Assembly: GCA_902779865.1 (NCBI GenBank)
Contig: CACZDG010000021.1
Coordinates: forward strand, 1 to 34,933
Direction of reading: 5' to 3'
Length of the DNA: 34,933 nucleotides
Origin: an uncultured bacterium
Lineage (GTDB): Bacteria > Verrucomicrobiota > Kiritimatiellia > RFP12 > UBA1067
Below are positions 1 to 2,809 of the stretch, piece by piece (the stretch's first letter is position 1; each line of letters starts with the position of its first letter). The notes beneath the pieces were generated by a model, which saw only the letters and a program-made list of their open reading frames with translations, did no database searches and was not told the DNA's origin. Made by a program: the position numbers and the translations under genes.

Positions 1-1164
1 TTCTCTTGTTGCAGTTTTCATGTTCTTTAGTATACTAAAGAATACGCGCAAAGTCAAGGGGCCAGATGAATTTTTTACAGAAAAAACTCGTTGCACCCGG
101 ATGACGACGCCTTCCACGGTGTTTGTTTGTGTCACTATACAGTACCCTTTACGGCCCGAAACAGGATTCTCATACGGTACATACTTCTTTTCGATGCTGA
201 CAACCAGTTCGCGTGAGCGAATCAGCCACCACTTCAAGCCTTCGCCCCCATATCGCCTATACAGCATAACAACGATGACCACCGACATTCCCGCCAGAAG
301 AAGTGTGGTCAGCCCCATTGTCAATTGCCGGGACAGGTTTCGACTCTTAATGGCCTTGACGAGGGCGGCAACGGACTGATAACGGCGATTGGTGATGGAT
401 GACGTCGCGCGTTCAATGATGCGTGCCCATACCTGCGGCGGCTTGCCACTGAAGCAACGATCTGCCAATACGCCGAGAGCGTGGATGTCGGACGCGACGG
501 ACACTTCGCCGCGCTCCATCTGCTCAGGTGCGCCGTAACCTGGGGTGCCGACGCAGCCAAGAGTAATGTCCGATGTCGGATTTCCGTTTTTCGATGTCGC
601 GATGTCCTTGACGAGGCCAAGGTCGGCGAGAACGGGAACCGGCGGTCGCGGGGCGACCGCCCTACCGGTGCGGCGCGCTCGGTGATCGCGCCCTACCGCC
701 GTTCGCCACAGGATGTTGGAAGGTTTTATATCGCGGTGGACGATTCCACGGGCATGAAGTTCGGCTACGGCGTCGCAAACCTGTCGAAGAAAGCGCGCGA
801 TTTCCCTGTCGCCAGACGGCAGTTCGCCCGGCTCAAGTAGTTCCATCACAAGGTATAAGAATCCATTAGCTTCCCCGTATTCCAGAAATTGAGGGAAAGA
901 TGCCGACTTCAACTCCGAAAGCAGCCTTGCCTCGCGCACGAAGCGTTCCCTTGCGCGCGGTTCATCGCGGACAAGCACCTTTACGGCGGCGGAGGTTCCA
1001 AGAGAAACATGCACCGCACGGTACACTTCGCCACTCCCACCCTTGCCGATAAACGCCGTAACGCACCAGTTGCCGAACATCACGCCGTCCTGAAACGACG
1101 CGCCCGTCGGCATACGCTCGTGGGCGGAAAGGATTCCTTCTATCTCGTCCACACCGAGACTCAT
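1..1164 (-). CDS. Membrane Ser/Thr protein kinase (Hanks type), 3' end outside window
   Basis: The frame stays open from the ATG at 1164 to the window edge (388 codons, no stop), so the gene is partial. The kinase domain reads in order: glycine loop GKGGSGEVY (residues 40-48), likely ATP lysine K62 (AAVKVL), catalytic HRDIKPSN (143-150), DLG in place of DFG (181-183) and GAPEQ (211-215). A hydrophobic segment near 280-302 would anchor it in the membrane, with an extracytoplasmic part following. Its ATG overlaps the sigma-factor stop by 4 nt (ATGA), so the two are translationally coupled; a shared signalling role is inference. Between the catalytic loop and DLG, about 22 residues (153-174) come from an inserted GC-rich palindromic repeat. 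The key kinase residues remain, so it may be active. Kinase identity is certain; substrate unknown. Confidence 0.88.
   Translation of the reverse strand, partial: MSLGVDEIEGILSAHERMPTGASFQDGVMFGNWCVTAFIGKGGSGEVYRAVHVSLGTSAAVKVLVRDEPRARERFVREARLLSELKSASFPQFLEYGEANGFLYLVMELLEPGELPSGDREIARFLRQVCDAVAELHARGIVHRDIKPSNILWRTAVGRDHRARRTGRAVAPRPPVPVLADLGLVKDIATSKNGNPTSDITLGCVGTPGYGAPEQMERGEVSVASDIHALGVLADRCFSGKPPQVWARIIERATSSITNRRYQSVAALVKAIKSRNLSRQLTMGLTTLLLAGMSVVIVVMLYRRYGGEGLKWWLIRSRELVVSIEKKYVPYENPVSGRKGYCIVTQTNTVEGVVIRVQRVFSVKNSSGPLTLRVFFSILKNMKTATRE
641..705. repeat. GC-rich palindromic repeat element inside the kinase gene (two modules)
   Basis: Module 1 (641-661) is an 8-bp inverted repeat, GGCGGTCG/CGACCGCC, with a 5-nt loop. 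Module 2 (about 672-693) has arms GGCGCG/CGCGCC and is followed by CCTACCG. Positions 673-705 match 1424-1456 in the sigma-factor gene at 31 of 33 bases. Module 1 matches 24882-24902 in the macrodomain gene at 20 of 21. The element keeps the kinase frame open and encodes an Arg/Pro-rich insert. Confidence 0.8.
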
Positions 1165-1805
1165 ATATTTCCCGCCTTTTCAAGAGCAGCCACAATCTTC
1201 TGAAGGCGCGGCATCATTCGTTTTTTGATCTGGTCAACGGCGTTGCGCTCGATTCCGAACGCGGCGGCGACGTCGTCCGGCTTCTCGCCGTTCACCGCCA
1301 CGCGCAGGAACACCTGCCGCGTGCGGGATTGGATCGACTCGTCGTTCATCAGTTGCTGGAGCGCGATTTCAACGAGCGTTTCGCGCCAGGATTGTTCGTC
1401 GTCACTTTGGATTACGCTTTGCAGCGCGCTCGGTGATCGCACCCTACCGTCGTTCGTCATGCATTGCGGCGCATCGTCCAGCGAGCGCCGCATTTCTTCG
1501 GCGATTTCCGCCCGCCGACGATCCTTGTGGAGTTGCCGGAGCGCCTTGTTGCGGAGGATGCCAGTCAGGTAGTTGTGAAAATATCCTTTCTCTTCCGGCT
1601 CATAGCGGTAGGACGGCAACGCCGCACAGACGGCGATCAGCGTTTCTTGTATTACGTCATCGGCATCAAGCGACGGGAACCGCTCTCGCATGTACGCCTC
1701 CATCATGGGACGATATCGCGCAACGAACTCGCCCCAGCGCACGTGCTGTGAATCACTTGCGATGTCGCGCAAAAGGGTCGTTGATGTCGCCGGGAGGTCC
1801 GCCAT
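1161..1805 (-). CDS. ECF-type RNA polymerase sigma-70 family factor
   Basis: A 214-aa protein. The sigma-2-like region holds FVARYRPMMEAYMRERFPS followed by LDADDVIQETLIAV (residues about 24-60). The sigma-4-like region is C-terminal, with a helix-turn-helix around GEKPDDVAAAFGIERNAVDQ (about 173-192). The linker between the two regions carries about 11 residues derived from a repeat shared with the kinase gene. Such a factor directs RNA polymerase to a dedicated promoter set. The 4-nt overlap with the downstream kinase argues that its activity is tied to that kinase, which is inference. No anti-sigma factor is visible. The ATG at 1805 is 17 nt after the stop of the small upstream ORF, with a GACGGA ribosome-binding-like sequence. 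Confidence 0.87.
   Translation of the reverse strand: MADLPATSTTLLRDIASDSQHVRWGEFVARYRPMMEAYMRERFPSLDADDVIQETLIAVCAALPSYRYEPEEKGYFHNYLTGILRNKALRQLHKDRRRAEIAEEMRRSLDDAPQCMTNDGRVRSPSALQSVIQSDDEQSWRETLVEIALQQLMNDESIQSRTRQVFLRVAVNGEKPDDVAAAFGIERNAVDQIKKRMMPRLQKIVAALEKAGNI
1424..1456. repeat. 33-nt copy of the GC-rich palindromic element in the sigma-factor gene
   Basis: Bases 1424-1456 match 673-705 at 31 of 33 positions in the same orientation, although the host genes have unrelated sequences. This copy has only the second module (core GCGCGCTCGGTGATCGC, then CCCTACCG). It sits in frame in the linker between the two sigma domains (residues about 117-127). Confidence 0.8.
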
Positions 1806-1822
1806 TCCGTCTTAGCCCATCT

Positions 1823-1957
1823 TCACAGTGATATTTTCGCCTCTGCCTCCCATGCAAGCAATTGCTTGCGATGGATGCTTAGCTTTTCAGCATCCTCGAC
1901 TGTAACAAGTCCATACCGATCTACGGCGGCCTCATAGACTTTCTCAAAATTGCTCAT
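1823..1957 (-). CDS. 44-aa small protein resembling an antitoxin N-terminal winged helix (possible remnant)
   Basis: The frame runs from ATG at 1957 to TGA at 1823. The product begins MSNFEKVYEAAVDRYGLVTV and continues with EDAEKLSIHRKQLLAWE. The pattern 'YGLVTVEDAEKL..HRKQLLAW' resembles the N-terminal winged-helix segment of AbiEi-type antitoxins, which are normally followed by a much longer C-terminal domain that is absent here. It lies 17 nt upstream of the sigma factor in the same direction. TATCAT ends 6 bp before its ATG, which would make it the leaderless first gene of the sigma-kinase unit. It may be a real small regulator or a truncated leftover; the family assignment is weak. Confidence 0.4.
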   Translation of the reverse strand: MSNFEKVYEAAVDRYGLVTVEDAEKLSIHRKQLLAWEAEAKISL

Positions 1958-1969
1958 GTCAATATGATA
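1958..1969 (-). promoter_or_regulatory. Candidate -10 box for a leaderless transcript (small protein-sigma-kinase)
   Basis: On the minus strand TATCAT (1969-1964) is followed by 6 nt and then the ATG at 1957, which puts the expected transcription start at or next to the start codon. No Shine-Dalgarno is present. No convincing -35 box is seen. Confidence 0.4.
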
Positions 1970-2058
1970 TCATTTCCTGGGGCATTTTGTCAAGCGTGGA
2001 GGAGGGGACGTCTTGACGCAAGGGAGTATCTCACAACTACCCATGGAGTATAACAGAA

Positions 2059-2205
2059 TAATGTGGCATATTAATAAATATAATGTGGCACATTATTCAT
2101 AATATTATGGCACAATATATATCTTAATATGGCACATTAAAGTATATATTGTGCCACAATATATAATATAATGTCCTACATTAATATGAATAATGTGCTA
2201 CATTA
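2059..2205. repeat. Seven 15-bp dyads at exact 22-bp spacing, AT-rich iteron-like array
   Basis: Seven copies of a 15-bp palindromic motif, consensus TAATGTG-S-CACATTA, start at 2059, 2081, 2103, 2125, 2147, 2169 and 2191, so every step is exactly 22 bp. Copies at 2081 (TAATGTGGCACATTA) and 2147 (TATTGTGCCACAATA) are perfect 7+1+7 dyads; the others carry one to three changes. The 7-bp spacers are AT-rich and differ from each other. The first four copies have G at the centre and the last three C. Copy 2 plus its spacer (2081-2101) matches the reverse complement of 2185-2205 at 20 of 21. The geometry, about two helical turns, fits a dimeric DNA-binding protein occupying one DNA face. Possible roles are an operator array, replication iterons or a partition site; none is shown. 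Confidence 0.85.
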
Positions 2206-2419
2206 ACTTGTCTCCCTCCCACTGGCGCATTGACTCCTTCCCTTACCAGGAAACGCCATCACACGCCACGTGACATTGGGGATGTTGTGCCACTGTATGA
2301 TCTGTCTTAGGCTGCGGCGGTTGTGAGCCGCCGTATCGGTCGCCACTTGGCGAGAGTTTCATGTGCCCTTACTACCGTACACCCAGATACCGCAAGATGA
2401 AGGCAGACGTCTTTTCGCG

Positions 2420-2809
2420 TTAACATGTCTCTGCTGCGGCGCGGACGGCGTTGCGGACGCAGTTCTCGCAGCTGCAGATGACTTTGCCTGTATCGATTCC
2501 CTTAAGCTCGCGGCAGATGGTCGCGCCGCCGCAGAGTTCCTTGAAGCGTGGCATGATCGCGCGAGAGTTCTTCATAGCTGCGCCGTCGGGCGAGACGATG
2601 GACGAGACCATGATCGCGCCCACGAGTGCGCCGCACGTTCCCTCCATCGTCCCCATGCCCGCACCGAAGCCGGAGCCGAGGCGCAACAGTTCGGCCTCGT
2701 CCCTCCCAAGCCTGTCGGCAAACGCCACAAGCACCGCCTGGCAGCAGTTCATCTCGCTCTTGCGCCTCGCGGCGTAGTCCATGCGCTCTTCCAATGTCAT
2801 TTCTTTCAT
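2420..2809 (-). CDS. C_GCAxxG_C_C family protein (putative redox-active Cys protein)
   Basis: A 129-aa protein with the family pattern: NCCQAVL (Cys 22-23), GSGFGAGMG then EGTCGALVGA, and a C-terminal SCENCVRNA. Conserved cysteines in this family (C_GCAxxG_C_C) are thought to bind metal or act in redox chemistry; the exact function is not established. It has no signal peptide and is probably cytoplasmic. It is the last gene before the gene-free stretch and lies 42 bp after epmA in the same direction. The upstream GGAAAAG may serve as a weak ribosome-binding site. Confidence 0.8.
   Translation of the reverse strand: MKEMTLEERMDYAARRKSEMNCCQAVLVAFADRLGRDEAELLRLGSGFGAGMGTMEGTCGALVGAIMVSSIVSPDGAAMKNSRAIMPRFKELCGGATICRELKGIDTGKVICSCENCVRNAVRAAAETC

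Follow-up and report, generated by a model that had tools for sequence, protein, structure and literature searches.

Comparison of sequences within and between genomes indicates that the array of seven dyads in the window (the whole 34,933-nucleotide stretch of DNA analyzed) is probably an orphan: a copy of the array of sites belonging to an HU-like DNA-binding protein whose gene lies on contig C57 of the same genome. The constant neighbor of this array type is an HU-like gene, which the window lacks, and no piece of such a gene was found beside the window copy. The simplest account of these arrays would be that they are cognate multi-dimer sites to which the HU-like protein putatively binds.

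The window array and its copies in the genome

The seven 15-bp units (Table 1) start at an exact 22-bp step, at 2059, 2081, 2103, 2125, 2147, 2169, and 2191, each matching TAATGTGNCACATTA with at most three mismatches; 0.35 such matches are expected by chance in the whole window, and seven were reached in 0 of 100 shuffles. Inside the AT-rich island of the window, the array has a lag score of 51 at 22 bp, where 2000 dinucleotide shuffles give at most 18, and the seven dyads observed there compare with at most 2 in such shuffles. Tandem Repeats Finder reports period 22 at 2058-2174 and period 44 at 2056-2202. Five units pair at 6 of 7 positions and the other two (2081 and 2147) are perfect 7+1+7 dyads, and the center base changes from G (units 1-4) to C (units 5-7). 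A sequence-only reading of this DNA had described the seven 15-bp dyads starting every 22 bp between 2059 and 2191, the two perfect dyads, and the change from G to C after the fourth copy, and each is borne out, the array itself lying far above chance. The change of the center base is a trait of the window's family and some others and no general rule, because whole-array mirror symmetry attains the best possible rank (0.1) in 9 of the 25 seven-unit masters (the arrays at HU-like genes), where 2.5 would be expected, and the window copy ranks 0.4; the C57 array is among the best (0.1), and a separate earlier test of whole-array mirror symmetry was weak.

Table 1. Features of the array and its surroundings, in window coordinates
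Feature	Position	Strand	Basis
Window orphan array, consensus TAATGTG-S-CACATTA	2059..2205		Motif matches, Tandem Repeats Finder, shuffles
Unit 2, perfect 7+1+7 dyad	2081..2095		Sequence
Unit 5, perfect 7+1+7 dyad	2147..2161		Sequence
Whole copied segment, array plus flanks; 84% identity to C34:39078-39425	1999..2346		Sequence comparison
Segment with AbiEi-like fragment and array, versus 44 bp in relative G012	1790..2428		Genome comparison
44-codon ORF resembling AbiEi antitoxin N-terminus	1826..1957	-	E 0.0016, 18.9 bits; Pfam cut-off 25
Promoter-like TTGACA-18-TATCAT, directly before AbiEi-like ORF	1964..1993	-	Consensus match by eye
ECF-type sigma-70 factor gene, left neighbor; G012 has it too	1161..1805	-	
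C_GCAxxG_C_C protein gene, right neighbor; G012 has it too	2420..2809	-	

The array had been described as occurring nowhere else in the window, which is correct, but a search of its own assembly (4.3 Mb in 272 contigs) found four further arrays of the same type, at C16:238-384, C34:39138-39284, C57:16584-16730, and C191:2628-2774, every one with exactly seven units at a step of exactly 22 bp. The center pattern GGGG/CCC is present in four of the five copies, and the C57 copy reads GGGGTCC in that orientation. The flanks are shared as well, with 84-93% pairwise identity over 240-415 bp including the array. Among these five copies, the arms differ at 10.3% of positions, the spacers at 14.8%, and the flanks at 10.8-13.3%; the contrast is weak, and selection on the window copy itself appears weakly supported. 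Beyond this genome, no window-dyad array was found in 59 relatives at one mismatch or fewer per dyad, and no exact window-type dyad pair was found in viral contigs.

At the window site, the gap between the sigma factor gene and the C_GCAxxG gene is 639 bp, compared with 44 bp in G012, and neither a clean target-site duplication nor a clean junction was seen in the comparison with that genome; the segment carrying the array may have been either gained in this genome or lost in G012. The promoter-like sequence that the sequence-only reading placed near the array is indeed there (1993-1964, minus strand, a consensus match), falling just outside the copied segment. Other repeats occur in and around these regions. 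A piece of about 34 bp at 1419-1452 and 669-708 of the window recurs in dozens of places in this and congeneric genomes and represents a family of short dispersed repeats. Short segments where the copied unit ends on the right (2315-2380), with a GGCGG...CCGCC palindrome, have matches in several congeneric genomes, perhaps as a separate REP-like repeat. On contig C140 of this genome, TAATGTGACAAAAT-like motifs form a looser cluster at 24- to 30-bp steps (L010, 4926-5019), and the C191 copy adjoins a 381-codon ORF (L008, 3320-4465) that has no NCBIfam match and that we take to resemble a phage-type adenine methylase.

The HU-like partner gene and its upstream arrays

On C57, TTGCAC-17-TATACT comes after the array, and the start codon of an intact 263-codon HU-like gene lies beyond it, 94 bp past the last dyad. 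The gene is assigned by Pfam to HU-DNA_bdg (PF14848, HU/IHF superfamily), and pieces of it persist beside the arrays of C34 and C16 as separate matches. Homology between C57 and C34 extends from about 80 bp past the array to near the gene's stop codon, and the copied unit therefore appears to be the array plus the gene. The genome contains eight PF14848 matches, or 12 matches with the family profile, and several of its other HU-like genes have other dyads upstream, at 22 bp (C137, C48, and C135) or at 23-24 bp (C103). A profile of 54 array-linked proteins, a set that omits four of 58 arrays, matched PDB entries 4fmr (6.7e-17), HU 5eka (3.8e-5), TF1 (2.5e-4), and IHF (0.0041). PF14848 was matched by 42 of the 54 at E 0.01, and the only other Pfam families found at that threshold were DUF4469 and HU-HIG; by these profile matches, the partner protein belongs to the HU/IHF superfamily. 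None of the 54 matched PHROGs, and two peptide patterns found no relatives of the protein in viral contigs. A structure predicted from three sequences had a mean pLDDT of 50.5, too poor for use. Among close relatives of the protein, three named records are from an uncultured bacterium (RUG12612), an uncultured Verrucomicrobia assembly (SRR873601), and a Kiritimatiellae assembly (yak reticulum). Within the class, 65 of 346 genomes have matches to the protein, and PF14848 matches occur in 18 of 387 sampled genomes of the phylum.

In addition, 115 genomes of the bacterial family, all of the surveyed genomes being draft assemblies, were searched with a profile of the proteins of 13 array-bearing genes, and 49 had matches. 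Weaker matches to the family profile were left out of the upstream survey, and of the 109 genes wanted, one lay outside the retrieved regions and one had too little upstream sequence, leaving 107. A periodic array, defined as a lag score of at least 15 at periods 20-25 within 600 bp upstream, was present at 72 of these 107 genes, a rate that is biased upward because array-bearing proteins were the source of the search profile; when the model from Pfam was used, in the genus only, 12 of 30 genes have an array (table count). The lag score never exceeded 13 in 2140 shuffles. Control regions downstream of the genes had an array in 1 of 56 cases, and those far upstream in 6 of 96, at least two of which (L145 and L170) are the array of an HU-like gene in front, while 110 non-HU ORFs from the same neighborhoods gave four upstream matches, all of them HU arrays of a divergent neighbor. 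Some of the 72 arrays are unconvincing, having two or three units or lying several hundred bases away from the gene. At least four units are present in 58, most often seven (26 arrays) and next most often four (12), and 32 of these 58 have a number other than seven, the unit number varying from 2 to 10 between clades. The pitch of the 66 arrays scoring at least 20 is 22 in 50, 23 in 8, 21 in 6, 24 in 1, and 20 in 1, so that 64 of the 66 fall at 21-23 bp. Among 17 regions with HU-like genes from a sister family, 15 were below threshold, one was weak, and one was too short, and an HU-like gene from another class (G455) had no array; as far as tested, the feature is therefore confined to this family. 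In other genomes, the HU-like genes of L145, L149, L165, and L170 occur as tandem pairs, the first gene with a GC-rich dyad array and the second mostly of the 'MARHEV' type.

A comparison of 21 neighborhoods found the HU-like gene to be the only widely recurring family, using a rough ORF caller that missed the HU-like gene itself in five loci. One family of large proteins is common to three loci of a single HU clade (L173, L179, and L191), and the remaining relations are two-locus links or ORFs antisense to the HU-like gene.

A strict -10 box follows the array in 20 of the 58 cases (22 boxes, as consensus matches), and 19 of the 22 boxes sit 13-16.5 bp from a dyad center modulo the pitch (Rayleigh R 0.73), in slots about 14-15, 36-38, and 57-59 bp from the center of the last dyad. 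The nominal p for this phase, 7e-6, is too small, because the 22 boxes come from 20 arrays and two clades give five each. The distance between the centers of the -35 and -10 boxes, 23 bp, is about that of the pitch, and both boxes would therefore fall between dyads. For 13 of the 58 arrays, the distance to the start codon is at most 40 bp, and one of these also belongs to the -10-box group. At the master loci, with some arrays directly adjoining promoter-like sequence at a fixed phase, the cooperative operator that the sequence-only reading listed among its candidates is plausible. Among orphans, 26 of 30 lack a strict -10 box.

The dyad sequence differs between protein clades and follows protein identity. 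Dyad similarity is about 0.3 where the HU parts are less than 30% identical and 0.79 where they are more than 80% identical (8 pairs), and across all 58 arrays it is correlated with identity over the first 150 residues of the protein (Mantel r 0.37, 0 of 2000 permutations). This correlation is no proof of recognition because protein and array descend together, and common descent could be the source of much of it; moreover, automatic centering failed for some arrays (L047 and L122), which adds noise to both the dyad consensus and the similarity figures. An inner GTC-N-GAC is common to L046, L085, L086, and L088, whose outer bases differ between arrays and between units, and L117 and L122 (G135), which align with each other, have the common arms CAA(A/G)TAG...CTA(C/T)TTG. 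L122 has about one more central dyad base than L117 and a pitch of 23 instead of 22, and it seems that pitch follows dyad width. We do not claim joint change of both arms because the consensus sequences were symmetrized and units within an array differ.

Orphan arrays and alternative explanations

Searches with array regions as queries found orphan arrays for three of the four further arrays of this genome, or four of five with the window's type included, and in four of five other genomes, with 0 to about 12 copies per array type. Of 30 orphans examined, 24 have seven units, and all steps equal those of the master exactly, at 22 or 23. When 27 of them (all but L308, L318, and L227) were compared with their master arrays, mismatches amounted to 10.8% in the dyad core (211/1953), 13.9% in the outer dyad, and 25.5% in the spacer (237/930), in agreement with the earlier impression that the dyads rather than the spacers look selected; the Fisher p for core against spacer (8e-23) is too small, as orphans within a family are not independent of each other. 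Families differ in this contrast, which is strong in L054, L077, L129, L085, and L046, moderate in L082, and lacking in L091 and L119, whose orphan cores are no better kept than the spacers. Outside both the 30 and the 27 stand 12 C103-type orphans, which are part of a longer repeat with flanks of its own and a variable number of units: by a strict pattern, four have seven units and eight have one to six, some clearly shortened. An apparent tendency of orphans to avoid divergent promoters, obtained with a rough ORF table, was discarded, as a better caller shows no orientation bias (21 tandem, 6 divergent, and 5 convergent, n = 32, against a background of 98, 34, and 22), in a count where 7 of 39 orphans lie at contig edges and the caller misjudges the window, both of whose neighbors are on the minus strand.

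The dispersal of these orphans also fits a mobile palindromic repeat with a REP/RAYT-like layout, in which the array would be the spreading cis part, the HU-like gene the autonomous or helper part, and the window copy an insertion, a reading that we consider possible, if rather unlikely. In the L054, L091, and L129 families, homology is practically limited to the array, and identity of the flanks drops to about 0.3 over roughly 20 bp, as would be expected of such an element; the left flank is kept in L301. The added length of the window site relative to G012 and the absence of the window dyad from the 59 relatives point in the same direction, as do the inverted repeats in the 20 bp outside the dyads of some orphans (1.0 in L315 and 0.8 in L320, where only 0.2% of cross-family pairs reach 0.65). 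However, such repeats of at least 0.65 occur in just 4 of 27 orphans and 0 of 24 masters, the window site has no clean target-site duplication, no transposase or HuH nuclease family was found among the 54 array-linked proteins (Pfam, E 0.01), and a piece of the HU-like gene still lies beside 5 of 30 orphans, which fits plain duplication and decay. Mobility and use as an HU site are compatible, and both may hold.

It is very unlikely that the array is an operator of the adjoining antitoxin/sigma/kinase unit bound by an unlinked helix-turn-helix regulator: the array does lie before the promoter-like sequence of that unit on the minus strand, but the orthologous G012 unit has no array, four other copies are found elsewhere, and the constant partner is the HU-like gene, and the link to this unit proposed in the sequence-only reading is not supported for what is one of five dispersed copies. 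Hairpins in the RNA of a transcribed leader, a still fainter prospect, would explain why arm mismatches of the G-T kind exceed those of the A-C kind on the gene-sense strand (275 to 167), but this excess is not significant per array (29 to 16, p 0.07) or for arrays near the start codon (8 to 4, p 0.39), and neither the window nor four array loci had an Rfam match. The innermost pair of even-width dyads, moreover, which would be free in an RNA loop, is complementary in 62% of 241 units compared with 48-76% further out, a figure favored by the picking of centers for symmetry. We find it scarcely credible that the array represents plasmid iterons or a partition centromere, as had also been proposed; the even spacing and the AT-rich island are what such elements would have, yet the array occurs in five places of one assembly, none of the 10 window ORFs scanned has a Rep or Par family, and the adjoining genes encode a sigma factor and a C_GCAxxG protein, with no replication initiator. 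Equally hard to credit is a neutral minisatellite, despite the tandem units and a unit number that ranges from 2 to 10 between clades and varies among C103-type orphans, as seven units are kept in 5 of 5 window-family copies and 24 of 30 orphans, the step is exact, and spacers diverge more than dyads overall. The sequence-only reading had named copies scattered at random like an expanding minisatellite, with no conserved neighbor and no bound protein, as the outcome that would count against it. This is half borne out: the copies are indeed scattered, yet most keep seven units and the array type keeps its gene partner.

Proposed binding and comparison with known systems

If the arrays are sites of the HU-like protein, each dyad would be bound by one homodimer, and seven dimers about two helical turns apart may assemble into a single compact complex, bent or wrapped. 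Such a complex would control, at the master locus, the promoter of the HU-like gene itself, amounting to autoregulation, and the same protein would occupy the orphan arrays in trans, where candidate roles include architecture, local regulation, or simply the persistence of a mobile repeat. The sequence preference for which HU proteins are best known is a weak one. A more far-reaching version, which we regard as doubtful, would have mutually independent sets of sequence-coded, nucleosome-like particles, with each HU-like paralogue recognizing only its own dyad, seven dimers wrapping the array of about 147-154 bp, the dispersed arrays being marked or gathered by that protein, and the pair diversifying and spreading as a unit.

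The pairing of an HU-like gene with an array would be novel, provided that the protein does bind the array. As HU proteins serve as textbook cases of DNA packaging with weak specificity, a large HU-like group in which many members have palindrome arrays of their own, with one pitch in common and frequently seven units, would show sequence specificity evolving on the HU fold and would offer dozens of natural protein-site pairs for decoding recognition, while the orphan arrays pose the question of whether they serve chromosome organization or represent a new mode of palindrome spread. A 2017 study has reportedly dealt with new HU/IHF clades. Clusters of sites at near-helical spacing, each bound by one protein, are familiar from ParB-parS, ArgR boxes, and plasmid iterons; the arrays share this arrangement with them, but the proteins are of other families, and we know of none of these systems in which different dyads recur at a single pitch in the same genome. 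In the open-licence literature, as far as titles and the beginnings of abstracts tell, there is no report of arrays beside HU-like genes, and although the parts (an HU-like protein, palindromes, and dispersed repeats) are of known kinds, no description of their combination was found there.

Among HU/IHF-superfamily proteins, TDE_2259 of Treponema denticola is named as one PF14848/PF14734 protein (PMC12724145); such proteins have the same domains by profile, and the difference here is the upstream dyad arrays. The HU protein PG0121 of P. gingivalis has been studied with a 77-bp inverted repeat at the capsule locus, under a heading that calls the binding non-discriminatory (PMC3969353). As far as the accessible text of that report goes, the likeness lies in an HU-family protein and an inverted repeat near a gene cluster, and the difference in there being one large inverted repeat with no periodic array. 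The nearest known layout, by analogy, would be that of REP palindromes and their TnpA-REP/RAYT proteins (REPtrons), for which the abstract describes a gene linked to palindromes, dispersed cognate palindromes in high copy number, and co-evolution of protein and palindrome (PMC8266576). The array type likewise has a linked gene and cognate palindromes dispersed in the genome; it departs from REPtrons in that the protein is HU-like and not an HuH (Y1) TnpA-REP, the feature by which membership is recognized, and in that the palindromes form fixed-pitch dyad arrays with 0 to about 12 copies per type, compared with the high copy number given in that source.
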